Positions 1,041 through 57,980 of a stretch of DNA of 64,000 nt are shown here, piece by piece (position 1 is the stretch's first letter; the number at the start of each line of letters is the position of its first letter). The stretch is from NCBI GenBank assembly GCA_015075635.1, contig JABTUA010000003.1:2418001-2482000 (forward strand), in the 5' to 3' direction. The notes under the pieces are model-generated. The model saw only the letters and a list, made by a program, of their open reading frames with translations. It did not search any database and was not told where the DNA came from. The stretch is from Polyangiaceae bacterium. GTDB lineage: Bacteria > Myxococcota_A > Polyangia > Polyangiales > Polyangiaceae. A program made the translations under genes and the position numbers.

Positions 1041-2345
1041 ATGACGTTCTCGATCGAGTTTGCCGACGAGACCCAGCAGTATCAGGCCCGCATCAAGGTG
1101 ATCGGGGTCGGAGGCTCGGGAGGCAACGCAGTCAACACGATGATCCACTTCGGCCTCGAAGGCGTGGAGTTCATCAGTGTCAACACCGACGCCCAGGCCC
1201 TGGGCTCGAACGCCGCGGCGCAGAAGATCCCCATCGGGGCGAACCTGACCCGCGGGCTCGGCGCCGGCGCCGATCCGGAGCGCGGCCGCAAGGCGGCGCT
1301 CGAGGACGTGAACCGCCTGAAGGAGTCCCTGGAAGGCGCCGACATGGTCTTCATCACCGCCGGCATGGGCGGCGGCACCGGCACCGGCGCGGCCCCCATC
1401 ATCGCGCAGATCGCCCGGGAGCTCGGCGCCCTGACGGTGGGCGTGGTGACCAAGCCCTTCGTGTTCGAGGGTAAGAAGCGCGCGCGTCAGGCCGAGGCCG
1501 GCATCGCCGCGCTGAACGACCACGTGGACACGCTGATCACCATCCCGAACGAGAAGCTCATGACCCTGGCCGACGAGGAGATGACCTTCGTGGACGCCTT
1601 CCGCAAGGCGGACGAGGTGCTCTTCCAGGCCGTGAAGGGCATCAGCGATCTCATCACGCAGGACGGCATCGTCAACGTGGACTTCGCCGACGTGCGCACG
1701 GTGATGAACAACATGGGCCGCGCGCTCATGGGCACCGGCTGCGCCAAGGGCGAGGGCCGAGCGCGCCTGGCCGCGGAGCACGCCATCACGTCGCCGCTGC
1801 TCGACAACATCAGCGTCGAAGGCGCCACGGGCGTCCTCATCAACATCGTCGGCGGCCCCGACATGAAGATGAAGGAGATCCAGGACGCCGCGAGCCTGAT
1901 TCAGGAGCAGGCCCACGAGGACGCCAACATCATCTTCGGCGCGAGCATCGACGAGAGCATGGGCGACGCCATCAAGGTGACGGTCATCGCCACCGGCTTC
2001 GACTCCGCCGACGCGGAGATCCCCGTCGAGATCGCGGCTCCCACCCGCGTGGTCGCCTCCGCCCCGAGCCGCCGCGACTCCGTGCGCGACGCGCTGCGCG
2101 AGGGCTTCAGCAGCATGCCGCCGTCGCGCGCCGCGCACTCGACCGCGCGCCCGGCCATCAATCCCGATCTGGTTCCCGCGATGAGCACGCGCCGCCCGGC
2201 CGCGCTCGCCGCGAGCCTCCAGGCCGGAAGCTCGCCCTTGTCGAGCGCGGGCCCCGAGGTGCGCTCGCGCATCTCCTTCCCGGCATCCCTCGACGCCGAT
2301 GCGGACTGGGACACTCCGGCGTTCCAGCGTCGCAACGGCGGATGA
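1041..2345 (+). CDS. ftsZ: Cell division protein FtsZ
   Basis: Tubulin-like GTPase that polymerises into the Z-ring. The GTP-binding signature GGGTGTGAAP is near residue 115, preceded by the N-terminal VIGVGGSGGNAVN nucleotide loop. The globular core is followed by a Ser/Ala/Arg-rich linker of roughly 90 residues and a C-terminal DTPAFQRR peptide, the variant of the conserved tail that binds FtsA and other partners. Length (434 aa) is normal. Two ATGs compete: 1032 touches the Shine-Dalgarno GGGAGG (1026-1031), whereas 1041 sits about nine bases after it, so 1041 is chosen. It is followed by a strong terminator hairpin. Confidence 0.97.
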   Translation: MTFSIEFADETQQYQARIKVIGVGGSGGNAVNTMIHFGLEGVEFISVNTDAQALGSNAAAQKIPIGANLTRGLGAGADPERGRKAALEDVNRLKESLEGADMVFITAGMGGGTGTGAAPIIAQIARELGALTVGVVTKPFVFEGKKRARQAEAGIAALNDHVDTLITIPNEKLMTLADEEMTFVDAFRKADEVLFQAVKGISDLITQDGIVNVDFADVRTVMNNMGRALMGTGCAKGEGRARLAAEHAITSPLLDNISVEGATGVLINIVGGPDMKMKEIQDAASLIQEQAHEDANIIFGASIDESMGDAIKVTVIATGFDSADAEIPVEIAAPTRVVASAPSRRDSVRDALREGFSSMPPSRAAHSTARPAINPDLVPAMSTRRPAALAASLQAGSSPLSSAGPEVRSRISFPASLDADADWDTPAFQRRNGG

Positions 2346-2381
2346 CGCTCCCGTTCTGATCGCCTCCCGTTGGTATGTTGG

Positions 2382-2416
2382 ACCCCCCGTCTCGTGCAGA
2401 GGCGGGGGGTTCGTTT
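2382..2416 (+). terminator. Rho-independent terminator after ftsZ
   Basis: ACCCCCCGTCTC and GAGGCGGGGGGT form a 12-bp stem with one G-T wobble around a tiny loop, followed by a T-rich tail on the plus strand (TTCGTTT). It begins 36 bases after the ftsZ stop and touches the stop codon of the convergent membrane-protein gene, so it probably ends transcription of ftsZ and perhaps of both. A 27-base piece covering one arm is repeated exactly at 12370-12396. Confidence 0.8.
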
Positions 2417-4373
2417 ATTGGCGCCCAGCGAGGAGCTGGAGGAGCTCCGCGTTACGGTCGAGCGGCGCTCCGCGACGCAGGACCACGAAGTTCGGGCGCT
2501 CCGCGTGGAAGCCGAAGCGGCCGCTCTGGAGCTCGTCCGTCACGATGCGGCGCGCCGCCCCGAAGTCGAGGTCGTCGTGGGAGTACAGCAGGTAGTCAGC
2601 GCCCTGGTGCTCGTACTTGAGGGTGAACAAGTACTCGCGCTGCGCGAGGTGGGGAGTGTCGTGCTCCGTCGCGGCGACGCTGGCGTCGGGCGGGATGGTC
2701 CTGGCGATCTCACGCAGGTTCCTGAGGTTTTCGAGGTGCTGGCGGGTGAGGTCGAAGCGGACTCGCCCGCCGCCGGAGGTGAAATTCTCGCGCTGCAGGG
2801 CGCCAAACTGGTGCGTGCAAAGCAGGGTCCCGAACATCAGCGCGCCGAGCGCCGAGTCCCTCGCGATGGGACCACGTCGCTTGCCGAGACGCTCGAGAGC
2901 CAAGATCGCCGCGAGGAAGACGTACGGGGTGAAGTGAGTGACGTACTGGAAGCGGATCTCGACGACCGGCATGTAGCCGGTGGAGAGCAGGGTGACGAAC
3001 GCGCCCGGAAACAACAGGAAGAGGAAGCGCTTGTCGCGCAGGGGCAAGAAGGCGAGCGGCGTGAAAACGTGCAGGACGTAGGGGATCTTCTCGGGGAAGA
3101 GGATGGTGGAGAAGACGAAGAGCGGATTGGTCAGCAGGGTCTCGAGCACACCCTTGAACCCGACCTCGCCTGGCGCGACGAGCTTCTCGTAGATGTAGAC
3201 GAACGAAGCGTCGCCGTACTTGGGCATGATCACGAACTTGACCACCACGAAGTACGCCGCCGAGAGCACGAAGAGCGCCGCCCCGACCCGCGCGCGATGG
3301 CCTGCGATGAGCAGCGCCAAGCCCAAGCCGATGCCACCGAGGGGGACGTCCTCGCGGCACATCAACGACATCACGACGAAGACCCAGAACCACGGCCACC
3401 GCTCCGTGAAAAAGAAGTAGGCGGCCCAGAGGACGAAGAAGGCGGAGACGGTCAGGAAGTGGAAGTCGCTGAAGGTTGGCGCGTGGAGCGGAGGATAGAG
3501 GAGAAAGGCGCCGGCAACCGCTGCCGCCCTCCAGTCGCTCGCAAGGCGCCGCCGCGCGATCAGGTAGAGCGGAATAGCGGCCAGACCAAGAAGGGCCGCC
3601 TGCAAGAGCACCAACGTCGAGGCATCCGGGCGGAGCGCGTAGAGCGGAGCCAGCAAGTAGACCGCTGGCTCGGTGTGGATCGAGAGGTAGGAGCCGTCGC
3701 GCGGGTGCGTGATCGGGCAGTAAAAGGGGCGGCCTTGAAGCGTGTTCCAGAAGAACGTCGCGTAGTAGCCGAGGTCGAAGCCGGAGGTCTGGCGGCGCAG
3801 GTGTTGGAGCCAGGTGTAGTAGCCCATGTAGCCAACGAAGCTCGCGACCAGGAGGGCCACCACCCCGTGAGGCGCCCACGAGCGGAGCCTCACGGCGGTC
3901 TGGATGCGCGAGGACCACGCTCGGAGCGCGTCCAGCGCGTCGAGGCGCCGCGCCTCGCGCAGCGTCACGCGCAGCGAGCGCTCGAGCGCCAGCACCAGCA
4001 CGGCTGCGCTCAGCAAGAACGAGGGGTCGCGGCCGGTCCACGCCTGGACCGAGAGCATGGGTGGCACGGCCCACAAGACGACGCAGACCGCGAGAAGGCG
4101 CGCCGCGCTGCCGGCCTGCTCGCTGCGTTCGGCGGCGGCAGCGCGTCCGCCGGTGCGCCACGCGACGGCCACCGTGGCGAACAACACCACGCACGGGACG
4201 GTCGCGCCTACGACCAGCCACGAGATGAGGTGATCGCGACCGTGTGGGGAGAGCTCGTTCCTCGCCACGAACGCTGGTAGCCATCGAGCGCCCCGCAGCG
4301 CCCGCAGGAAGAAGGCGACGCTGGCGCCCTCGGCCGCGAAGAGCAGGAGCGTGCGCACGAAGCGTACGGCCAT
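2415..4373 (-). CDS. DUF2079 family polytopic membrane protein
   Basis: Integral membrane protein of about 652 residues with many hydrophobic segments. The family-typical stretch FDLGYYATFFWNTLQGRPFY (near residue 200) is followed by HTEPAVYLLAPLY, as in DUF2079 proteins. These are predicted membrane proteins whose topology resembles GT-C glycosyltransferases. The function is not established. The open frame extends upstream, but the ATG at 4373 (MAVRFVR, then a hydrophobic helix) is the best start because homology with the truncated copy at 7225-7723 begins just after it. It converges on ftsZ. The first 170 or so codons are duplicated 3.4 kb away. Confidence 0.8.
   Translation of the reverse strand: MAVRFVRTLLLFAAEGASVAFFLRALRGARWLPAFVARNELSPHGRDHLISWLVVGATVPCVVLFATVAVAWRTGGRAAAAERSEQAGSAARLLAVCVVLWAVPPMLSVQAWTGRDPSFLLSAAVLVLALERSLRVTLREARRLDALDALRAWSSRIQTAVRLRSWAPHGVVALLVASFVGYMGYYTWLQHLRRQTSGFDLGYYATFFWNTLQGRPFYCPITHPRDGSYLSIHTEPAVYLLAPLYALRPDASTLVLLQAALLGLAAIPLYLIARRRLASDWRAAAVAGAFLLYPPLHAPTFSDFHFLTVSAFFVLWAAYFFFTERWPWFWVFVVMSLMCREDVPLGGIGLGLALLIAGHRARVGAALFVLSAAYFVVVKFVIMPKYGDASFVYIYEKLVAPGEVGFKGVLETLLTNPLFVFSTILFPEKIPYVLHVFTPLAFLPLRDKRFLFLLFPGAFVTLLSTGYMPVVEIRFQYVTHFTPYVFLAAILALERLGKRRGPIARDSALGALMFGTLLCTHQFGALQRENFTSGGGRVRFDLTRQHLENLRNLREIARTIPPDASVAATEHDTPHLAQREYLFTLKYEHQGADYLLYSHDDLDFGAARRIVTDELQSGRFGFHAERPNFVVLRRGAPLDRNAELLQLLAGRQ
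3848..4351 (-). repeat. Source segment of a 0.5-kb duplication (5' end of DUF2079 gene)
   Basis: This stretch is repeated in the same orientation at 7225-7716. By eye I see about 20 substitutions and one 12-base gap over roughly 500 bases, so the duplication is fairly recent. It covers the N-terminal coding part of the membrane protein only. Confidence 0.85.
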
Positions 4374-6921: not shown

Positions 6922-7026
6922 GAGCTCGGTAGCGACATGGCACCAGGTTCACCGCTGGTCGTCAAGCATCGCAGCGCGCGAGGTGACGCAACGGCACTTT
7001 GGATCCGCGACCGCGCCTCGTGGAAG

Positions 7027-7187
7027 TGCGGCACCTCGCGCGCAGGCGGCGCACCTTCCCCTGCCGCGCGCAGCGGCCAGCGCGAGCGCCGTGCCGCGCG
7101 TTGCTTCGCCGTACTGCGAGGCGCTGGCGGCGAGCACTGGCTTTGCGCAAGGTCGCGCGGCCGGAGACCTCGCGCGACAGCGAGTAT
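7027..7187. repeat. Intergenic repeat A-B, uninterrupted copy (empty IS site)
   Basis: 7027-7066 matches 10664-10703 at 37 of 40 positions, and 7067-7122 matches 12271-12326 with three differences, with further similarity to 7187. The two halves are contiguous here but separated by the IS element there, so this copy is the unoccupied site. Block A contains an imperfect inverted repeat (CGCGCAGG ... CCTGCCGCG) whose 3' edge is the insertion point. The 315 bases from 6910 to 7224 otherwise hold no gene that I can support. Confidence 0.85.
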
Positions 7188-7224
7188 CCCGCGACGCACC
7201 GCGCTCGAGGACGCGCGGGTTGGT

Positions 7225-7723
7225 CCAGGAGGGCCACCACCCCGTGAGGCGCCCACGAGCGGAGCCTCGAGCCGGTCTGAATGCGCGAGGACCACGCTCG
7301 GAGCGCGACCAGCGCGTCGAGGCGCCGCGCCTCGCGCAGCGAGCGCTCGAGCGCCAGCACCAGCACGGCTGCGCTCAGCAAGAACGAGAGGTCACGGCCG
7401 ATCCACGCCTGGACCGAGAGCATGGGTGGTACGGCCCACAGGACGACGCAGACCGCGAGAAGGCGCGCCGCGCTGCCGGCCTGCTCGGTGCGTTCGGCGG
7501 CGGCAGCGCGTCCGCCGGTGCGCCACGCGACGGCCACCGTGGCGAAAAACACTACGCACGGGACGGTCGCGCCTACGACCAGCCACGAGATGAGGTGATC
7601 GCGACCGTGTGGGGAGAGCTCGTTCCTCGCCACGAACGCTGGTAGCCATCGAGCGCCCCGCAGCGCCCGCAGGAAGAAGGCCACGCTGGCGCCCTCGGCC
7701 GCGAGGAGCAGGAGCGCGGGCAT
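7225..7723 (-). pseudogene. Truncated second copy of the DUF2079 membrane protein
   Basis: The ATG at 7723 opens MPALLLLAAEG, and the next 160 or so residues match the start of the intact gene at 2415-4373 almost perfectly. Homology stops after WAPHGVVALL at about 7225. The frame then runs through unrelated Arg-rich sequence to a stop at 6962. About three quarters of the protein, including the conserved loop, is missing, so this is a 5' gene fragment. It keeps a 12-base in-frame deletion and scattered substitutions relative to the parent. Confidence 0.8.
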
Positions 7724-7761
7724 GACACGTGCAGGCACCGCGGCGCTCGCAGCGATCGACT

Positions 7762-7995
7762 TCACACGCTGCCTCGATTGAGTCGCCTCGTGGTGACGAG
7801 CCCGAGCGAAAGCTGTGCCCAGTATGCCGACAGCCCGAGCCGCAGGCCGGGCATCAGCAGGAGGGTCCAGAGCGGGTTCGTGAAGCCCTGCACCCACGCG
7901 ACGCGCAGCACGGCGATCGAGTACACGAGCAGGCCGGCCGCGATGGCGAGCCACGGGCTGGGCGCTTCGACGGCGGCACCTCGAAGGCCGTGCCG
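7762..7995 (-). pseudogene. C-terminal fragment of a membrane protein (glycosyltransferase-like tail)
   Basis: The frame ending at 7762 carries two hydrophobic helices (around SPWLAIAAGLLVYSIAVL and FTNPLWTLLLMPGLRLGLSA) and a short basic tail. Upstream the frame becomes Arg-rich with no credible start or domain. The layout resembles the C-terminal membrane segments of family 2 glycosyltransferases with the catalytic part lost. It lies 38 bases before the truncated DUF2079 start, so the two may be debris of one former operon. The identity is tentative. Confidence 0.4.
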
Positions 7996-8066
7996 CCTGC
8001 TCCTCCGGCGAGGGTGCCCGAACGAAGCGCGAGAAGCGACCAAGTGGGTCCGGTCGCCTTCGTTCG

Positions 8067-8462
8067 CTACTTGCCGGCGTCCGGGCACTGGTAGTCGAAA
8101 CCGTTCAGCTGGGTCGTCCAGCTGTCATCGACGCAAGTTGCAATCCAGAACTCGCCGGCGGGGCACACCAGGTACTTGCATGGGACGGACCCGGAGGGCG
8201 CGCAGCAGGGTGCTCCGTCCGCGGGGAGATCCGGCGGACAGTCGCACGACGCCGCCTCCTCGGCCGGTGAGTCCTCCGCGCCCGCATCGCTCTCCGGCGG
8301 AAGGTCGAGCGTGACGTCCGGGGGAGCGGCCCCGTCGCCACCCGTGGCCGAATCGCCTTGCGCTCCCGAGTCGCCGGGAGCGTCCGACATCGTGCTGCCG
8401 CCACAGGCACTGGCCAGCGCGGACGCAGTCGCGAGCGAATGGAGTAGCTGTCGAACGCGCAT
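8067..8462 (-). CDS. Small Cys-rich lipoprotein, partner of protease copy 2
   Basis: 131-residue paralogue of the product of 4417-4851. A leader ends in a lipobox-like ASAC, then an acidic Gly/Ala/Asp linker, then a C-terminal domain with SCDCPPDLPADGAPCC and CKYLVCPAGEF. The ATG lies five bases after the stop of the protease upstream. The linker is diverged while the cysteine pattern is kept, so the cysteine domain is likely the selected part. Function unknown. Confidence 0.75.
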   Translation of the reverse strand: MRVRQLLHSLATASALASACGGSTMSDAPGDSGAQGDSATGGDGAAPPDVTLDLPPESDAGAEDSPAEEAASCDCPPDLPADGAPCCAPSGSVPCKYLVCPAGEFWIATCVDDSWTTQLNGFDYQCPDAGK

Positions 8463-8467
8463 GCTCC

Positions 8468-10303
8468 TCAAAAGTCGGCCCAGCGGCCCGAGTGATAGAA
8501 GGACTTCCACGGGTGCCACTGGGTCCCGCAATCACATGATGGGGTCTTGCAGGGGCCGGCCTCCCAGGTCGTGTAGTAGACGTTGCCCTTGTCGTCCGTG
8601 ACGAGCACCACCGGGATCACCGTGCTCTGAGGATCGTCCTGCCAGCGACTGATGGTGACCGAGACGATCCGCGGCGGCAGCGGGTTGGCGCAGTTCTGGT
8701 CCGGAGTGTACGCCTTCGGGCTGTAGTTGAGCCAACCGAACCAGGAATTGCCGCTGGTCGAGGTCTGCCCTCGCCACCAGAGCCCGCCGTTTGCATCAAC
8801 GGCGATGACGAAGACTCGGTTGTCCGAGAGCCAGCCCGCGTCGATGTCCACCATGGTCGCGGGGGCAGCGAAGTCCGAGGGAGTCGAGACCGGAAACGGC
8901 TCGGCCATCCACTTGACCGTCCCAGTAGAGGTGACCAGAAACGCCTGTTGGACCAGATCGCCGGCCCGGCGAATGGCGCTGACCTTGGTGTACGCATCGG
9001 GCACCCAGCCAGAGATCAAGAGCTGCCAATCGAGCCAGCGGCTGTAGGCTGCCGTTCCGCTCCGGCGCCTCCGCCACGCCCAGCCTCCCGCGACGTTGTC
9101 CACGGCGTACAGATGTGCCACCCCAGATCCGTCGTAGGCCGCGTCGATGTCTCTCACGACATGGCCCGACGGCACCACGAAGCTCGCCCAGGAAGTCCAG
9201 TTGCCCGCGAGGTCGACGTAACGAAAGGACATGGCGCCGCTCGTGTTCGTGACCATGACTTGCGGCTTCCCGTTGGTGAGGTACATGGCCGCGATGCGGT
9301 CCACGTTCGCCACCGCGCCGAAGTCGGACCACGCCTGCCAGCCAGCGGTCAGGCTCGCGGACTTCCGCGACCGTGTGCGGACGCGGCCCGAGTCACTGTC
9401 GGTCGCCCAGACCTGGGTTCGATTGGAGCCGCTCTCGTGCCGAGTGAGCGCCACGTTCGCCGCGAAGCGCGGGACGTTGGCGAAGCGGTTCACGCTGGGC
9501 GCGATCCCGTCGTAACCGCCCGGCGGGTTGCACGCGCCGACCGTGATGCCCATGCCGTGTTCGACCCCCAGGAGCACGGGCGTGCCGAGGTCCGCGAGCA
9601 GCGGGGAGCCGGACGCCCCGCCCGTAGTCGAGCAACTGGTGCGGACGAGGTCGTCTGTGCTCCCGTTGTCGTTGGTCGAGTCGACGACGCAGCTCGGATC
9701 GACCAGGCCGTAGTTCCACCAACGGTGGTTGTCGGTGGCCGGATCGAAATCGCAAGGGCAGGAGCCGCCTCCTGCGCACCCGGCGACGAGCTCGTCGCCA
9801 TACGGCGGACAGCGAACGTCCGGCCCGAGCGCAAAGGGATCGCGATCGTACCCGCCACGATAGACCGACCACCCTTGGTAGGCAGTCATGGGGAGGGCTG
9901 GAATGCTCGGGAAGTCCACGACAGGTGGACACCACTGCTGCGTGAATGTGTCGTTCCACGCGCAGTCGAGCCTCATGATCGACCAGTCGGACGCCAGAAA
10001 ACCCGCTTCGGGATCTCCAGCACCCCAGCCGGTCGCTGCCAAAGTGCCGACCACCGCACGCGAGATCGAGTACCTCGGCGGGTTGGTGCGCGTCGGATCG
10101 AAGTTCGGGTAGAAATTCAATCCGGTCTGCCACACCGCGTTGTCCCAGTGCGCGCAGTGAGCGGCTGCGGCGATGTGGTGCGGGTCGATCAGCACCGCCG
10201 TGCACCCGTTGTTGAGGTACCCGACCGCGCCCCACGGCAACGTGGTCGTCGCCGAGAACATCTGGTAGAAATCGGGGCAGTACACCGTGGCTTGCTCGGT
10301 CAC
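8468..10303 (-). CDS. Secreted trypsin-like serine protease, copy 2
   Basis: Paralogue of 4854-6767 with the same layout: S1 domain (AAHC, SDWSIMRLDC, GGASGSPLL) and a C-terminal Trp-rich repeat region that is very similar in both copies. The first usable in-frame start is GTG 10303, which gives no signal peptide. The frame is open upstream and encodes a hydrophobic leader ending LSAC (lipobox), preceded by no standard start in frame. An ATG with strong Shine-Dalgarno at 10460 is 157 bases upstream, one base off frame, across an AAGC repeat. With one unit lost the protein would be about 662 residues with a complete lipoprotein signal. Confidence 0.85.
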   Translation of the reverse strand: MTEQATVYCPDFYQMFSATTTLPWGAVGYLNNGCTAVLIDPHHIAAAAHCAHWDNAVWQTGLNFYPNFDPTRTNPPRYSISRAVVGTLAATGWGAGDPEAGFLASDWSIMRLDCAWNDTFTQQWCPPVVDFPSIPALPMTAYQGWSVYRGGYDRDPFALGPDVRCPPYGDELVAGCAGGGSCPCDFDPATDNHRWWNYGLVDPSCVVDSTNDNGSTDDLVRTSCSTTGGASGSPLLADLGTPVLLGVEHGMGITVGACNPPGGYDGIAPSVNRFANVPRFAANVALTRHESGSNRTQVWATDSDSGRVRTRSRKSASLTAGWQAWSDFGAVANVDRIAAMYLTNGKPQVMVTNTSGAMSFRYVDLAGNWTSWASFVVPSGHVVRDIDAAYDGSGVAHLYAVDNVAGGWAWRRRRSGTAAYSRWLDWQLLISGWVPDAYTKVSAIRRAGDLVQQAFLVTSTGTVKWMAEPFPVSTPSDFAAPATMVDIDAGWLSDNRVFVIAVDANGGLWWRGQTSTSGNSWFGWLNYSPKAYTPDQNCANPLPPRIVSVTISRWQDDPQSTVIPVVLVTDDKGNVYYTTWEAGPCKTPSCDCGTQWHPWKSFYHSGRWADF

Positions 10304-49376: not shown

Positions 49377-49393
49377 CGTTGAAAGACTCAACG
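49377..49393. promoter_or_regulatory. Upstream activator site 1 (17-bp palindrome)
   Basis: CGTTGAAAGACTCAACG: arms CGTTGA/TCAACG around five bases. It has the same arms as the site at 49442-49458, with centres 65 bp apart. It lies about 195 bp upstream of the expected start of transcription, within normal enhancer distance for a sigma-54 promoter. Confidence 0.7.
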
Positions 49394-49441: not shown

Positions 49442-49458
49442 CGTTGAGCTTCTCAACG
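49442..49458. promoter_or_regulatory. Upstream activator site 2 (17-bp palindrome)
   Basis: CGTTGAGCTTCTCAACG: arms CGTTGAG/CTCAACG around three bases. Its centre is about 130 bp before the expected transcription start. It is probably bound by the NtrC-type regulator encoded at 54819-56168. Confidence 0.7.
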
Positions 49459-49552: not shown

Positions 49553-49568
49553 TGGCACGTGGGGTGCA
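49553..49568 (+). promoter_or_regulatory. Sigma-54 promoter of the multiheme cytochrome operon
   Basis: TGGCACGTGGGGTGCA has the -24 GG and -12 GC dinucleotides separated by exactly ten bases and matches TGGCACGnnnnTTGCA at all but one position. The start of transcription would be near 49580, giving a leader of about 43 bases with AAGGAG before the ATG at 49623. Confidence 0.8.
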
Positions 49569-49622: not shown

Positions 49623-50360
49623 ATGGCCCACCGAGAAGAAAACCTGAACTTCAAAGACTACGTCATCATCGTCGCGCTGACGCTGGGCGCGCTCGGCCTG
49701 ATCCCGCTCTTCGCGGTGTTCGGCTTCGCGCTGCAGTTCGCCTTCGTCCTGGTGATGCCCGCGCTCCTGATCGGGAGCGTCGTATACGCGCTGAGCACGA
49801 CCGCGGAGGTCATCGTCTCACAGGTGCAGGGCGTGAACGTCCCGATGGACGTGCGCCTCCACCGTGGTCACGGCTGGGCGCGACGCGCGCCGGGCTGCGT
49901 GGTCGCTGGAGTGGACGACTTCGCCCAGCGGCTGATCGGACCGGTGGACTCGATCGAGACCGCGGCCATCGGCATGTCGGTGAAGGCCGGCGATGTGATG
50001 GCGGTGCTCCGCCACGGTGAGCGCGAGATCGCCATCCGCGCACCGATCAGCGGCAAGGTGACCGGCGTGAACCCGCTGCTCCGCGGCAATCCCTCGCTCG
50101 TCAACTCGTTCCCGTACGGCCGGGGCTGGCTGGTCGAGATCACCCCGGAGCCCTCCAGCCTGAAGCACGGCATGAAGGAGCTGTTCGCTCGCGGCCGGGC
50201 GACCCGCTGGATGCGCCGCGAGATCGACCGCCTGTTCGCCCTCACCGCTCCCGACCCCGAGATGCCCACTCTGGCCGACGGTGGTGAGCTCTCCGTCGAC
50301 GCCTGCGCCCACCTCGACGATGCCGCCTGGAAGCGCGTCGTCAGCGAAATCTTCCCTTGA
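49623..50360 (+). CDS. Membrane-anchored GcvH-like (lipoyl-fold) protein
   Basis: 245 residues. Two adjacent hydrophobic stretches at residues 12-55 anchor it. Residues 80-175 follow the glycine-cleavage H-protein fold (RGHGWARRAP...GVDDFAQRLIGPVDSIE...VKAGDVMAVLRHGEREIAIRAPISGKVTGVNP...PYGRGWLVEI). At the place of the lipoylated Lys (ESVKAASD in GcvH) it reads HGEREIAI, so the lysine is missing and no lipoyl swinging arm is expected. GcvH-like proteins sit beside redox complexes in several anaerobe-type loci. First gene of the sigma-54 operon, 17 bases before the next. Confidence 0.8.
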   Translation: MAHREENLNFKDYVIIVALTLGALGLIPLFAVFGFALQFAFVLVMPALLIGSVVYALSTTAEVIVSQVQGVNVPMDVRLHRGHGWARRAPGCVVAGVDDFAQRLIGPVDSIETAAIGMSVKAGDVMAVLRHGEREIAIRAPISGKVTGVNPLLRGNPSLVNSFPYGRGWLVEITPEPSSLKHGMKELFARGRATRWMRREIDRLFALTAPDPEMPTLADGGELSVDACAHLDDAAWKRVVSEIFP

Positions 50361-50377
50361 ACCCAGGAAGGTGTGCC

Positions 50378-52345
50378 GTGAACGCCCCCCGCACTTTCGG
50401 TCTGTTGCTCCTGGTCGGAACCTGGACTGGCGCCGCGCTGGCGGCGCCTCCGCCTTCCATCCCGAACCAGGACTGTCTCGAGTGTCACCGCCAGCCCGGC
50501 ACGGAGAAGGGGCCAAAGGGCAAGGACGGGCAGCCCATCGACATGAAGCGCTATGCGCTGTCGGCCCACGCCGACGTCGCCTGCGTGAAGTGCCACGCCG
50601 ACGCCAAGGCCGACAGCCACGGCGCCGGGCTCGCGCCCGTCGCTTGCGGCAGCTGTCACGCCGAGGAGGCGAAGCGGTACCAGAAGGGGGCGCACGCCGA
50701 GAGCAAGAAGCCCGTCGCCTGCGCCGACTGCCACGGCACGCACGACACCCGCTCCGTCAAGGACCCCGAGAGCCAGGTCTCGCGCGCCAACCTGCCCGCC
50801 ACCTGCGGCAACTGCCACGACGGCAAGGCGAAGGCCAAGGGCCAGCCGGCGTTCTCGCGCAAGGACTACGAGAGCAGCGTCCACTTCCGCGGCATGACCG
50901 ACGACGGGCTGACCGTGTCGGCCACCTGCAACGATTGCCACGGCGGTCACGACATGGCCGCCGTGGCCAGCAAGAGCTCGCCCATCTTCCGCGACAACGT
51001 GCCCAAGACTTGCGGGCAGTGTCACGACGGCATGTTCGAGCAGTACATGGAGGGCGCGCACGGCGTGGCCCTCGCGAAGGGCAACAGCGACACGCCGGTC
51101 TGCACCGACTGCCACGGCGAGCACGGCATCCGCGATACTTCCGACCCGAAGTCCAGCGTGTTCGCCGCCGCCATCAGCAAGTCGACCTGCCCGCAGTGTC
51201 ACAGCGCGGAGCACGTCAACCGACGCTACGGCTTGGCGACGACCCAGGTCGAAGGCTACCGCCAGTCGTTCCACGGGCTGGCCGACCAGTTCGGCGACAC
51301 CACCGTCGCCAACTGCGCCAGCTGCCACGGCGGGCACCTGATCCTGAACTCTTCGAATCCGAAGTCGTCCGTCAACAAGGCCAACCTGGCGGCGACCTGC
51401 GGCACGTGCCACCCCGGCGCCAGCGACAACTTCGCGGCCGGCAGCGTCCACAACCCGGAGCAGGCCAGCGGCGGCGCCGTGATCGCGTTGGTGAAGAAGA
51501 TCTACATCGCGCTGATCACCCTGACCATCGGCGGCATGCTGGCCTACAACGGGCTCGACTACCTCGCCACGCTGCGCGAGCGGCTGCGCCAGCTGAAGAA
51601 GACCCGCCGCGTGTCCCGCTTCACGCTGGGCGAGCGCGTGCAGCACCTGTGCCTGGTGGTGACCTTCTTCGTGCTGGTGATCAGCGGTTTCTCGCTGCGC
51701 TACCCGGACGCCTTCTGGGTCAAAGCGCTGTCGGACACCGGCCTGAGCTTCGCGGCGCGCGGTTACGCGCACCGAGTGGCCGCCGCCATCTTCGTGGTCG
51801 CGTCGCTCTACCACCTCTACTACCTGTTCGCGACGGCGCGCGGCCGGAGCCAGGGCAAGGCCATGCTGCCGAACCGGCAAGACCTCCGGGACCTCTGGCA
51901 CCAGCTCCGCTACTACGTCGGCCTCGAGGCGAAGCCTGGTCACTTCGGCCGCTACTCCTACGTGGAGAAGGTCGAGTACCTGGCGCTGATCTGGGGCTCC
52001 ATCGTGATGGTCGTCACGGGCTTCATCATGTGGTTCGAGGTCGGCGCGATGCGCTTCATCCCCATGTGGGGCTGGGACCTGGCCGCCCTGATCCACCTGT
52101 ACGAGGCCTGGCTCGCCACGCTCTCGATCCTGGTGTGGCACCTCTACCACGTGGCCTTCAAGCCCTCTGGTCACGGTGTGAGCCTGGCCATGTACACGGG
52201 CGAGCTCAGCGAAGCGGAGATGAAGCACGAGCACCCGCAGGAGCTCGAGACCCTCGGTCAGACCGAGATCCTCCCGCCCGAACCCGACAAGGAGCCGTCC
52301 CATGACACGCCGACGCTGTCACGGCCGCTGCCAGCCCACCGCTAG
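50378..52345 (+). CDS. 11-heme cytochrome c fused to cytochrome b-type membrane domain
   Basis: 655 residues. A signal peptide is followed by a periplasmic part (to about residue 365) with eleven CXXCH motifs, many in the spacing TCxxCHGxH typical of NrfB/NapC-like and deca-heme wires. The C-terminal 290 residues are a cytochrome b561-like membrane domain (LGERVQHLCLVVTFFVLVISGF and later HLYHVAFKP histidines). It should pass electrons between the quinone pool and extracytoplasmic acceptors. The GTG at 50378 after AGGAAGG is chosen over TTG 50357. It overlaps the next gene by 44 bases. Confidence 0.87.
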   Translation: MNAPRTFGLLLLVGTWTGAALAAPPPSIPNQDCLECHRQPGTEKGPKGKDGQPIDMKRYALSAHADVACVKCHADAKADSHGAGLAPVACGSCHAEEAKRYQKGAHAESKKPVACADCHGTHDTRSVKDPESQVSRANLPATCGNCHDGKAKAKGQPAFSRKDYESSVHFRGMTDDGLTVSATCNDCHGGHDMAAVASKSSPIFRDNVPKTCGQCHDGMFEQYMEGAHGVALAKGNSDTPVCTDCHGEHGIRDTSDPKSSVFAAAISKSTCPQCHSAEHVNRRYGLATTQVEGYRQSFHGLADQFGDTTVANCASCHGGHLILNSSNPKSSVNKANLAATCGTCHPGASDNFAAGSVHNPEQASGGAVIALVKKIYIALITLTIGGMLAYNGLDYLATLRERLRQLKKTRRVSRFTLGERVQHLCLVVTFFVLVISGFSLRYPDAFWVKALSDTGLSFAARGYAHRVAAAIFVVASLYHLYYLFATARGRSQGKAMLPNRQDLRDLWHQLRYYVGLEAKPGHFGRYSYVEKVEYLALIWGSIVMVVTGFIMWFEVGAMRFIPMWGWDLAALIHLYEAWLATLSILVWHLYHVAFKPSGHGVSLAMYTGELSEAEMKHEHPQELETLGQTEILPPEPDKEPSHDTPTLSRPLPAHR

Positions 52346-54245
52346 CGCTCTCGTCGTCGCGCTCGGGCTCGCGTTCGCGCTCGGCTGCGCGGCGGAGACC
52401 CGGGCCCCGGCCCCCGCGAGCGAGCAGCGCTCGCTCTTGGTGGAGGTCAACTGGGAGCCGAACGTGGAGCTCGAGCCGCTGCGCGACTCCGTGCATGCGA
52501 AGCTCGACTGCCCCGACTGCCACGCCCGCATCGAAGAGCGGCGCCTGGACGCGAAGAAGCCGCTGGCCGAGAACCTGTGCCAAGGCTGCCACCAGAAGGC
52601 GGATGCTGCGTTCGCGCTCTCCGTGCACGGCGCGGCGGGCAGCGAGAAGGGCGCACGCTGCCAGGACTGTCACGGCGCTCACGACGTGCGGGCGGTCAAG
52701 GACCGGCAGAGCAGCGTGAACAAGAAGAACGTGGCCAAGACCTGCGCCAAGTGCCACGACAATCCGCTGTTTTCCGCCGAGCTCGACCCCGAGAACAAGC
52801 AGGTGGTGGGTCAGTACGCGGAGAGCATCCACGGCAAGAAGCTCCTGGACAAAGGCATGCTCAAGTCGCCGTCCTGCACGGACTGCCACGGCGGCGGTCA
52901 CGACGTGCAGGAGGTCAAAGACGCCAAGAGCGCCGCGCAGAAGTCGGCGGTGATGGCGATGTGCGACAGCTGCCACAGCGGCATCACCAAGACGTTCAGC
53001 GCGAGCGCACACGGCAAGGCCCTGGCCAAGGGCGACGAGAACGCTCCGACCTGCGCCAGCTGTCACAGCGCCCACGCCGTCAGCGAGAAGGCGCTCGCGT
53101 TCCGCCTGGGCAGCGACCGCCAGTGTGGCAGCTGCCACGAAGAGCGCTTCGGCGCGCATCTCGAGACCTACCACGGTCGCGCCCACGCGCTGGGCGGCGC
53201 CAAGGTGGCGACCTGTTTCGACTGCCACGGCAGCCACGACGTCCTGCCGAGCAAGGACCCGGCGTCGCTGGTCTCCGCGGAGCGCAAGCTCGACACCTGC
53301 CGGTCCTGCCACGCGGACGCCCCCGCCAACCTCGCCGGCTACCTGCCGCACGGCGATCCGCAAGACCGAGCCGGCTTCCCGCTGCTCTACTGGGCCAACC
53401 AGTCGATGACCTGGCTGATCCGGGCCGCACTGGCCCTGCTCGTGCTGCACAGCTTGGGCTGGATGCTGCGCAACCTGCTCGACTTCGCGCGGGACCCCGA
53501 CGAGTACCGCGAGGCGCGCTGGCGCCGGATGCGTGAAGCGCGACGCGACTACGCTCCGGCCTTCCGCGGCGTCGATCGCCTCTGCTACGCGCTCCTGCTC
53601 GTCTCCTTCGTGCTCTTGGTCGTGACGGGCTTGCCGCTCGGCTTCAACCAGACCGCCTGGGCGAAGGAGCTGTTCGGGCTCCTGGGCGGGGCCGACTCCG
53701 CGCGCAGCCTTCATCGCCTGGGTGCGGTCTCGACCGTGGCGTACGCCGCTCTCCACCTCGGCAGCCTGATCGCGCCGCTGTGGCAGCGTCGCGGCCAGTA
53801 TCGCGACGAGGCGGGCCGCTTCCGGCTCGGCCGCTTCTTCGCGCTCGTGTTCGGCCCGGAGTCGCCGCTGCCCAACCCGCGCGATCTCAGGAGCTTCTGG
53901 GCGCACGCGAAGTGGCTCTTCGGGCGCGGGCCGGAGCCGAAGTTCGAGCGCTACCGCTACTGGGAGAAGCTCGACTACCTGGCGCTCTTCCTGGGCATCT
54001 CGGTCATCGCAGCCTCGGGGTTCGTGATGTGGGCCCCCGAGCTCGCGCTCTTGGTCCTGCCGGGCTCCTGGGTGAACCTGGCGCAGATCATCCACAACGA
54101 GCAGGCGCTCTTGGTGCTGGTGACGATCCTGAGCGCCCACGTCTGCCACCTGGTCCCGCGCGTCTTCGCGCCGCAGAGTCCGTCCGGGTCCCGAGCCCGT
54201 CGAGCCGTGTCACTGGCCCGTTCGGCCCTCGCCTCGGGGCGCTGA
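52302..54245 (+). CDS. 10-heme cytochrome c fused to cytochrome b-type membrane domain
   Basis: 647 residues. The leader ends ALGC (lipobox-like). The periplasmic part carries ten CXXCH motifs (DCPDCH first, TCRSCH last), and the C-terminal half is a membrane domain with His-bearing helices like that of its neighbour (MTWLIRAALALLVLHSLGW, CYALLLVSFVLLVVTGL, NEQALLVLVTILSAHVCHL). Both proteins share the c-then-b layout but are not close copies. The 44-base overlap with the previous gene implies a fixed ratio, possibly a heterodimer with 21 hemes c. Confidence 0.87.
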   Translation: MTRRRCHGRCQPTASALVVALGLAFALGCAAETRAPAPASEQRSLLVEVNWEPNVELEPLRDSVHAKLDCPDCHARIEERRLDAKKPLAENLCQGCHQKADAAFALSVHGAAGSEKGARCQDCHGAHDVRAVKDRQSSVNKKNVAKTCAKCHDNPLFSAELDPENKQVVGQYAESIHGKKLLDKGMLKSPSCTDCHGGGHDVQEVKDAKSAAQKSAVMAMCDSCHSGITKTFSASAHGKALAKGDENAPTCASCHSAHAVSEKALAFRLGSDRQCGSCHEERFGAHLETYHGRAHALGGAKVATCFDCHGSHDVLPSKDPASLVSAERKLDTCRSCHADAPANLAGYLPHGDPQDRAGFPLLYWANQSMTWLIRAALALLVLHSLGWMLRNLLDFARDPDEYREARWRRMREARRDYAPAFRGVDRLCYALLLVSFVLLVVTGLPLGFNQTAWAKELFGLLGGADSARSLHRLGAVSTVAYAALHLGSLIAPLWQRRGQYRDEAGRFRLGRFFALVFGPESPLPNPRDLRSFWAHAKWLFGRGPEPKFERYRYWEKLDYLALFLGISVIAASGFVMWAPELALLVLPGSWVNLAQIIHNEQALLVLVTILSAHVCHLVPRVFAPQSPSGSRARRAVSLARSALASGR

Positions 54246-54246
54246 G

Positions 54247-54804
54247 CTAGGCGCGCCGCGCGGCCGGGGCGTGGGTTGCTCTTAGCGCGAGCAAGCAGCG
54301 ATCGCAGAGCTCGTCCGACTTGAGATCGACGTCGTCCGCGGTCGAGGAGGCGTGCATCACGCAGCGAGGGTCCAGGCAGTGGAGGAGCCCCTGGCAGTGT
54401 CCGAGCTCGTGCACGGCTTCCTTCAGCAGACGCGCCCGGAGCACCTCCGGGCGAACCGACAGCCCATTCGGGCCCTCCGCCAAGCGGAAGGTGGACACGA
54501 GCGCGGCGCGCCCCCCCAGCTGGGCCTCACCGATCACGAAGGTGAAGATGGGGACGAACAAGTCCTGGCCGGTGACCCCCAACACCAGCCCCGAGTCCGA
54601 GAGCGCAGCAAGGGCGGAGAGTAGGCGTCGGGTGTCGTACTGGCTCCGCGCCTCGCTGTAGCTCTGGCCCATGTCCAGCTCGGTCTCGGCGGTTCGGCAG
54701 CTCGCGCGGAACACCCGTTCGAGACGCGGTCCCAGCCACGGCAAGAGCAACCCGGCCTCGGGCAAGCCCATCGGGACGAGCAGCAGGTCCGTCGGCGAAG
54801 GCAT
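54247..54804 (-). CDS. Archaemetzincin-family (M54) metalloprotease
   Basis: 185 residues. The complete family signature is present: HELGHCQGLLHC followed by CVM and LCDRC, i.e. HExxHxxGx3Cx4CxM plus a CxxC pair about 16 residues later, for one catalytic and one structural zinc. It lacks a signal peptide, so it is cytoplasmic. Function of archaemetzincins in bacteria is unknown. It is convergent with the cytochrome operon (one base apart) and lies 14 bases after the regulator gene, so it is probably read in the same minus-strand operon as the two-component system. Confidence 0.88.
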   Translation of the reverse strand: MPSPTDLLLVPMGLPEAGLLLPWLGPRLERVFRASCRTAETELDMGQSYSEARSQYDTRRLLSALAALSDSGLVLGVTGQDLFVPIFTFVIGEAQLGGRAALVSTFRLAEGPNGLSVRPEVLRARLLKEAVHELGHCQGLLHCLDPRCVMHASSTADDVDLKSDELCDRCLLALRATHAPAARRA

Positions 54805-54818
54805 GAGCGCTCTCGAGA

Positions 54819-56157
<1,339 letters not shown>

Positions 56158-56168
<11 letters not shown>

Positions 56169-57795
56169 TGCTCACCACCTTGGTGTTCGACGGAGTCGGT
56201 GTGCTCGCGCTCGGCGGCGGCTTCGGGTGCCGCGGGAGCGTGATGCGGAAGGTCGTTCCGGCGCCGGGCTTGCTCGATACGTCGATGTCGGCCTCGTGGC
56301 GACGGATGATGCCGTATACCACGGCCAAGCCGAGGCCGACGCCCTTGTCACCCTTGGTGGAGACGAAGGGCTCGAAGATCTCCGGCAGCACCTCGGGCGG
56401 GATGCCGACGCCCGTGTCGGTGATGCTGATGGTCAGGTCGTCGGCGCTCGCCTCGGCTTCGACGCGCAGCTGCCCGCCGCTGGGCATGGCTTCGGCTGCG
56501 TTGACCAGGAGCGCGACCAAAGCCTGCTGGATCTCGTTGGCGTCGCAGGTCAAGCGGTCGTCTCCAGCCACGTGTTCCACGCTGTGCTCGATGCCGTTGC
56601 TCTTCAAGAGGTGCTGCACGGTCATGAGGCTGCGGTCGATGATCGGGTTCAGGTTGTGCTCGGCGAAGACGTTCTTCGACTGCCGGGCGAACGTCAGCAG
56701 GTTCTTCACGATGTCGCCGCAGCGTGCCGACTCCGAGCGGACGACCTCGACGTAACGCAGGATCTCTTCCTTGTCCTTCTCCGGCAGGTCGGCCTTGGGG
56801 AGCTCGCGCTGGATCAGCTTGGCGTAGACCAGAATGCCCCCCAGGGGATTGTTGAGCTCGTGGGCCACGGTCGCCGCCAGCTTACCCAGCGAGGCCATCT
56901 TCTCCATGTGGACGATGTGGCGCTGCGCGGCGCCGAGCTCCCGAGTCTTCCGGGCGATGGCGGCTGCCAGCTCCTCCTCCCACTGCTCGCTCCGCGCTCG
57001 GGCCGCGGCCAGCTCCGCGCTCATCTGGTTGAAGGACTCGGCCAGCACCTGAAGCTCTCGCCCCCGATCGACCTCGACTCGCACCCCGAGATCACCCGCG
57101 GCGACCTTGCGTGTGCCGTCGACCAGGCGCCGAACCGGCCGCTGCACGAAGCGCCAAATCGAGAGGTAGGTCGCGAGCCCACCCACCAGGGCCATCAGCC
57201 CGGCCGCGTAGAACGTGCCGCGCCTGGCGCTCTTCGTGCCCTGTTCGATCACCGCCATCGACATCTGGAAGTCCATGACGCCCAGGTACTCCCGCTGCTC
57301 CGGCGGAGCGTGGCAGTCCGCGCCGGCGCACTGACTCGAGTTCTTGATCATCCGAGCCTGGCCCATCACCAGCGCCCCGCTCGGGTCGCGCAACGTGCGC
57401 GTCTTGCTCTGCTCCTTCGCTCTGCCGAACGGGGTGTCGTGGCACAACACGCAGAGCTCGGCGCTCTGCTTGGTCTTGGTCTTCAGGTCGTGGGTGTCCG
57501 TCGAGAACTTGACCTCGCCGTACTTGTCGTAGATGCGAATGCTTCGAATGCCAGGCGCCGTCGAGACATCGCGTAGCGCGGCATGCACGGCCTCCTTCTT
57601 CTTCAGCAGCATGCCTTGCCGGAGCACGCGCTCGATGACCGCCGTGGTCTGGCCGGCGTGCTGCTCGAAGGAGCTCTCCCAGGCGTCTTCGGCGCGCCGC
57701 GAGCTCAAGAACGAGAACGCCAGAAACACCACCACCACGGAGCCGAAGATCCCGAAGAAGAGGTTCACGCCAATGGAGGTCCGCGAGCGCTTCAT
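56158..57795 (-). CDS. Sensor histidine kinase with heme c motifs in its periplasmic domain
   Basis: 545 residues. After an N-terminal helix (FFGIFGSVVVVFLAFSFL) comes an extracytoplasmic domain of about 165 residues with a CXXCH motif (ELCVLCHDTP) and a CX4CH-like motif (CAGADCHAPP), then a second helix, HAMP, HisKA with VAHELNNPLGGILVYAKLI and HATPase (NEIQQALVALLVNAAEA, DTGVGIPP). Covalent heme in the sensor would let it read redox state or a gas. An ATG at 57810 is equally possible. A TGGCACG-type element lies on the minus strand at 57811-57826, but its -12 is imperfect. Confidence 0.9.
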
Positions 57796-57980
57796 GCTGG
57801 CGTCCGGCAACGAAGCAGCGTGCCACAGTCGCGGGCCCGGGGTACGCGGAGCACGAGGAATGTCGCGAAAAGTTTGCTGAACCCGTCAGGACGGTCGGGT
57901 GCGGGAGTGTCTGCCGGCCCGCCGTGGGATCTCGCCTGGCCTCCTTGCGCTCGGTCATGCCCGTCGCTACGTGGCTTCCG

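Follow-up and report, generated by a model that had tools for sequence, protein, structure and literature searches.

In CbcL of Geobacter sulfurreducens, a periplasmic domain with nine c-hemes is joined to a di-heme cytochrome b domain, and the protein donates electrons to a periplasmic cytochrome (PMC9129911). Along with MtoC and MtrH, it has been proposed to serve periplasmic electron transfer, either by oxidising quinol or by reducing quinone (PMC9129911, PMC6295460). Homologues of these three proteins occur in reducers as well as in oxidisers and are thought to serve both directions (PMC6295460); those of MtoC have been linked to iron oxidation, and for the MtoC-type proteins of metal oxidisers, inward electron flow has been proposed. 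LbpA, the lipoate-binding GcvH-like protein of sHdr sulfur oxidation, carries a lipoyl group and is associated with Hdr-like genes (PMC6067878).

We have analyzed a window of 64,000 nucleotides (C3:2418001-2482000 of a five-contig, 9.47 Mb genome, G000), in which three co-directional genes encode a GcvH-like protein (49623-50360), the multiheme cytochrome c/b fusion CytA (ending at 52345) and a second such fusion, CytB (52302-54245), so that the span of 49623-54245 assigned to them in an earlier note is correct. Likened by architecture and description, both fusions resemble CbcL, MtoC and MtrH in having an N-terminal periplasmic multiheme c domain, with about 28-31 residues per heme and predicted bis-His ligation, and a C-terminal HydC/FdnI-type b domain. 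However, CbcL is one protein with nine c-hemes and six transmembrane helices, whereas CytA and CytB, with 11 and 10 hemes and five hydrophobic segments, are two fusions from overlapping genes, one of them lacking a b-heme ligand, and have a GcvH-like companion. The b domain of CytA keeps the four heme-ligand histidine positions of FdnI (formate dehydrogenase-N, 1KQF) but is fused to a multiheme c domain, and its electrons presumably pass from quinol to the c-hemes, in contrast to those of FdnI, which run from the catalytic subunit to quinone. Similarly, the GcvH-like protein shares its fold and sequence family (PF01597) with GcvH but has neither the lipoyl lysine nor the ES-x-K context, and carries N-terminal membrane segments and a DGGE...W extension. 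As with LbpA, a GcvH relative has been taken into redox metabolism other than glycine cleavage; unlike LbpA, it belongs to a lysine-less family and is membrane-tethered. The same GcvH-like family is found in operons of related genomes for complexes of the QrcABCD and HybAB/NrfD types (L036, L038, L043, L045, L081, L082), but the complex of the window has c/b fusions instead of FeS and NrfD subunits.

Because single c/b fusions are known (CbcL; MtoC/MtrH), the electron-transfer principle is not new, and the earlier statement that no complex of this make-up is known stands for the pairing, the loss of a b-ligand in one partner and the GcvH-like companion, but not for the c/b fusion itself. The novelty is the paired, asymmetric, GcvH-like-linked variant and a recurring module rather than the fusion principle; in open-access full text, we found no paper in which GcvH is connected in such a way with NrfD or multiheme cytochromes. 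The best reading of the locus, with regard to the direction of flow that we infer, is electron transfer from quinol to the periplasm. More specifically, we postulate, with a probability of about 0.6, that it encodes a CbcL-like oxidoreductase, induced by a signal, that passes electrons from quinol to periplasmic cytochromes and has a GcvH-like adaptor or regulatory subunit facing the cytoplasm.

Results

CytA (50381..52345, plus strand) is an A-type fusion and CytB (52302..54245, plus strand) a B-type fusion, with exactly the 11 and 10 CxxCH motifs (21 in total) expected from the heme numbers of the earlier note. In both, Pfam matches cytochrome c7/c3 repeats, N-terminal to the HydC/FdnI-type cytochrome b domain, and Ni_hydr_CYTB (E 2e-14 and 6e-12); the Pfam domain matches of CytA, CytB and the GcvH-like protein are all far beyond chance. 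The overlap once ascribed to the genes holds for CytA and CytB, with the ATG of CytB positioned 44 nt inside the CytA gene (52302-52345), but there is no clear overlap between the GcvH-like gene and CytA. Two candidate starts were found for CytA, an in-frame TTG at 50357 and a GTG at 50381, 20 nt past the GcvH-like stop; the latter appears to be the likelier start, since it is closely preceded by the Shine-Dalgarno-like AGGAAGG and gives a clean signal peptide. The heme-rich regions comprise about 29-31 residues per heme, and the 12 additional histidines in the heme region of each protein that are conserved with the ortholog in L033, a metagenome-assembled genome (MAG) described below, are enough for bis-His ligation of all c-hemes. 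A simple hydropathy scan gave five hydrophobic segments in each protein. AlphaFold2 modelling, in which the alignments were shallow and drew on sequences of the window and L033 alone, yielded a CytA model (four sequences) with a mean pLDDT of 44, too poor for use.

The b domain of CytA aligns over its full length with FdnI (1KQF), with histidine at all four ligand positions, as in an FdnI-like di-heme cytochrome b with four transmembrane histidines. Among the compared c/b homologues (20 rows), the TM2 histidine and the two TM4 histidines are invariant, and only CytB and its L033 ortholog (L033_4) lack the TM1 histidine, both having tyrosine in its place. In FdnI, the TM1 histidine ligates the cytoplasmic-side heme near the quinone site. 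CytB probably holds just one normal b-heme and, by itself, may perform no quinone chemistry; the CytA/CytB pair is asymmetric because the TM1 heme-b histidine has been replaced by tyrosine in CytB and its ortholog alone. The lost TM1 ligand and a long stem branch could be taken to mean that CytB is a decaying duplicate without function, a reading we consider highly improbable given that all 10 heme motifs and the other ligands are retained and that the L033 CytB, full length and 52% identical to CytB of the window, shares the same TM1 loss, indicating that this state has been maintained. CytB as a pseudogene was rejected.

The nearest named relative of the c/b operon comes from the Deltaproteobacteria MAG L033, assigned to Myxococcota by the label of the tree tool; a myxobacterial source of the window is therefore likely. 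This second Myxococcota MAG keeps the order of the CytA-CytB pair. Maximum-likelihood analysis placed A-type and B-type fusions in separate clades (support 100/100), with CytB and its ortholog on a long stem inside the B clade near a paralogue from the same genome. This paralogue, on another contig, is 46% identical to CytB, as compared with about 31-35% for CytA; the separate clades and the closer relationship of CytB to the other-contig paralogue led us to reject local duplication as the origin of the pair. An A+B pair is also present in G008 (L068), in reverse order and again overlapping. The recurrence of such pairs in L033 and G008 supports a two-protein unit, and a physical association of CytA with CytB is likely, as judged from sequence. 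In L068 (G008:C77), the B-type fusion (6998-9892) contains 19 c-heme motifs and overlaps an 11-heme A-type fusion, and the pair adjoins a 13-heme protein and FeS/NrfD genes.

The GcvH-like protein (49623..50360, plus strand; 245 aa) matches GCV_H of Pfam at E 5.6e-17 (62 bits vs. a cut-off of 22) and the NCBIfam gcvH equivalog at 53 bits, below the cut-off of 116. Its H-protein fold was recovered by Foldseek (E 2.9e-8) on a model of low-to-moderate confidence, with pLDDT of about 63-82 in the core around residues 100-160 and poor values for much of the rest. Two features proposed earlier were borne out: aligned to the canonical GcvH of the genome, the protein has glutamic acid in the column of the lipoyl lysine, and two N-terminal hydrophobic segments constitute the gained membrane anchor. 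The canonical GcvH, encoded on contig 1, retains ESVK; with this protein elsewhere and the lysine lost, we have rejected the GcvH-like protein as the glycine-cleavage H-protein of the genome.

The C-terminal extension DGGE...W defines an extended family in which DGG and one tryptophan are nearly invariant and which, in the proteins scanned, is covered by no Pfam model over this region. The ES-x-K context was found in none of 26 extended members (one without a readable column), and an isolated lysine occupies the lipoyl column in three of them. By our reading of the search output, 15 of 377 sampled genomes of the phylum have an extended member, and two genomes of the same genus have none; plasmid records searched with the GcvH-like protein and CytB returned low-identity GcvH-type matches, mostly canonical GcvH, or none. 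Extended members have one or two N-terminal transmembrane segments or are fused to other domains, for instance to NuoG-like 2Fe-2S/4Fe-4S domains in L039. In L040 (G128, 907-2166) and L041 (G310, 2058-3218), a membrane-anchored receiver with an N-terminal transmembrane segment is joined to a lysine-less GcvH-like domain. Receiver domains are cytoplasmic, and single-TM members display strongly basic stretches directly after the transmembrane segment; on account of these fusions and basic stretches, the GcvH domain should face the cytoplasm. A cysteine-rich segment, CVWMxAGL..KLC...FxCxxCP, precedes the GcvH-like domain in L038_6 (L038:7067-7969), for which GCV_H is the sole Pfam match, in L036_9 (L036:10848-11603) and in L048_2 (L048:1987-2784), and is a possible metal or FeS site.

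The unit reported earlier is real but too small, with its regulatory half missed on both sides: a palindrome pair and a sigma-54-type promoter lie upstream, and an archaemetzincin, a response regulator and a heme sensor kinase lie downstream. The first palindrome, CGTTGA-N5-TCAACG (49377..49393, exact match), and the second, CGTTGAG-CTT-CTCAACG (49442..49458), 65 bp from the first, are putative upstream activating sequences (UAS) of the response regulator. The exact CGTTGA-N5-TCAACG has just two copies in the whole 9.47 Mb genome, both upstream of the c/b operon; GTTGAG-N3-CTCAAC occurs also at about -190 of the lead GcvH-like gene in L035, and two one-mismatch sites are found upstream of the lead GcvH-like gene in L033. 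A putative sigma-54 (-24/-12) promoter, TGGCACGTGGGGTGCA (49553..49568, plus strand), with one mismatch to TGGCACGN4TTGCA, is positioned 70 bp before the GcvH-like start. Of 9 lead genes from related clusters, 7 have a comparable site between -54 and -82, with about 0.3% per gene expected, in a comparison for which starts and lead genes were picked after inspection.

The downstream genes form a minus-strand operon (kinase, regulator, archaemetzincin) convergent with the c/b operon. The sensor histidine kinase (56158..57810, likely start ATG 57795) contains HAMP, HisKA and HATPase_c domains and two transmembrane segments, with the heme-c motifs CVLCH and CAGADCH (C-x4-CH) in its periplasmic part. 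The neighbouring regulator (54819..56168, minus strand), with Response_reg, Sigma54_activat and HTH_8, combines a receiver, a sigma-54 activator and a Fis-type HTH, as in an NtrC-type two-component system, and is the obvious candidate to bind the two palindromes. The archaemetzincin-like zinc protease (Peptidase M54; 54247..54804, minus strand; PF07998, E 1.2e-16) has an intact HELGHCQGLLH, thus the HExxHxxGxxH zinc motif, together with a Cys cluster; our literature search found nothing on archaemetzincin with cytochromes or two-component systems.

The neighbourhood of GcvH-like protein, histidine kinase, sigma-54 response regulator and archaemetzincin is found again in L033, L035, L036, L038, L042, L081 and L082, with the same kinase/regulator/archaemetzincin set but varying electron-transfer genes beside the GcvH-like gene: c/b fusions in the window, L033 and L042; FeS and NrfD subunits in L036, L038, L043 and L045 and in part in L041, L042 and L083; and a Qrc-like molybdopterin-family, FeS and NrfD set in L081 and L082. 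The L035 stretch (G376:C70), from the same family, harbors three different GcvH-like genes with 7-heme and 23-heme cytochromes and contains no c/b fusion. Among the 15 genomes with an extended GcvH-like member, 11 have the heme-sensor domain, vs. 11 of 362 without such a member (Fisher p 2e-12, ignoring relatedness); in most cases, the two lie less than 15 kb apart on one contig. Matches to archaemetzincin are located in the same clusters in G000, G376, G044, G093 (two), G229, G175 (two), G239, G364 and L033; a subset of archaemetzincins thus recurs beside GcvH-like/heme-kinase clusters. The GcvH-like protein is not restricted to the complex of the window, its lysine-less family also adjoining NrfD/FeS genes, Qrc-like genes and the heme-sensor two-component system. 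Near the close c/b relatives in the phylum, no GcvH-like gene was found, so neither the fold nor the basic chemistry requires it.

The constancy of the kinase, regulator, archaemetzincin and GcvH-like set amid changing electron-transfer genes (c/b pair, NrfD/FeS, Qrc-like, 23-heme) could also mean that the heme kinase has a pathway for protein control or signalling made up of the GcvH-like protein and the archaemetzincin, with the electron-transfer genes as its regulated output and making no contact with the GcvH-like protein. We find this rather unlikely, as the GcvH-like gene of the window and L033 stands in line with the electron-transfer genes and not with the kinase genes, and that of L043 accompanies NrfD/FeS genes on a stretch without a kinase. 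A more serious possibility, if not the one we would choose, is that the GcvH-like protein is a subunit serving simply the structure or assembly of the inner-membrane complex, without any signalling role, its barrel-sandwich fold serving as a docking platform at the cytoplasmic face. This would agree with its first place in operons with complexes of different kinds, with several copies per cluster if there were one per subunit, and with its lack of known catalytic residues; however, the receiver-domain fusions and the two-component linkage point to signalling, and most c/b and NrfD complexes manage without a GcvH-like protein.

With respect to acceptors, the earlier note had called for a search for an outer-membrane conduit elsewhere in the genome, and none of the MtrB/PioB porin type was found in G000 (no PF11854 match); nor was a terminal reductase seen next to the c/b operon. 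A large cluster on contig 2 contains a Rieske/cytochrome b pair and two proteins with 33 and 34 hemes, along with a second c/b fusion. The 34- and 33-CxxCH proteins (G000:C2:1850564-1852747 and 1866637-1868820; L061:7564-9747 and L062:6637-8820), of 727 aa each, are unusually heme-dense at about 21 residues per heme, the first having a NapC-like N-terminus. At G000:C2:1863795-1865289 (L062:3795-5289), Rieske and cytochrome b6-like genes stand before genes for 9-heme and 33-heme proteins; a full-consensus sigma-54 promoter, TGGCACGGCCGTTGCT, lies immediately upstream. The missing terminal reductase, as well as the occurrence of CbcL, MtoC and MtrH homologues in both reducers and oxidisers (PMC6295460), would fit a complex that runs in reverse, from periplasmic or extracellular donors to the quinone pool, as proposed for the MtoC type. 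Recognizing that MtrB/PioB is absent from the genome, we consider such inward flow unlikely.

Discussion

Gene content, heme counts, the losses of ligand and lysine, the recurrence of the neighbourhood and the repeated motifs can be read directly from the DNA, and we infer electron-flow direction, physical association, the pairing of regulator with DNA and the role of the GcvH-like protein. For the quinol-oxidizing, signal-induced complex that we favor, we envision that the sensor kinase, via its periplasmic c-heme(s), would respond to a ligand or to redox conditions beyond the inner membrane by phosphorylating the NtrC-type regulator, which, acting on the two palindromes with sigma-54, would switch on the GcvH-like gene, cytA and cytB. 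CytA would then oxidise quinol in its FdnI-type b domain and pass the electrons into its own periplasmic heme chain, with CytB, probably bearing one normal b-heme, as a partner that mainly extends or branches the wire; together, they would make up a 21-c-heme unit feeding periplasmic multiheme cytochromes. We surmise that the GcvH-like protein, devoid of lipoate and tethered at the cytoplasmic face by its N-terminal segments, would be an adaptor or regulatory subunit linking this complex to cytoplasmic signalling.

We also put forward, tentatively and with more doubt than belief, a broader proposal in which the lysine-less, membrane-tethered GcvH-like protein would serve bacterial quinone oxidoreductases in general as a sensor or adaptor module on the cytoplasmic side, accompanied by a periplasmic heme-c kinase, a sigma-54 regulator and an archaemetzincin, and governing here a new asymmetric two-subunit 21-heme c/b complex in which the cytochrome b of one partner is half-equipped. 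Within this complex, the c/b pair with one lost b-heme ligand offers a natural experiment on quinone chemistry vs. electron wiring in CbcL-like proteins. Our findings point to an undescribed accessory family, the lipoate-less H-protein, that is common to three or more unrelated quinone-linked types of respiratory complex and that goes together with a single kind of heme-sensing two-component system and with a protease family without an established bacterial role. If this is true, periplasm-directed respiration would have a shared principle, be it regulatory or structural.
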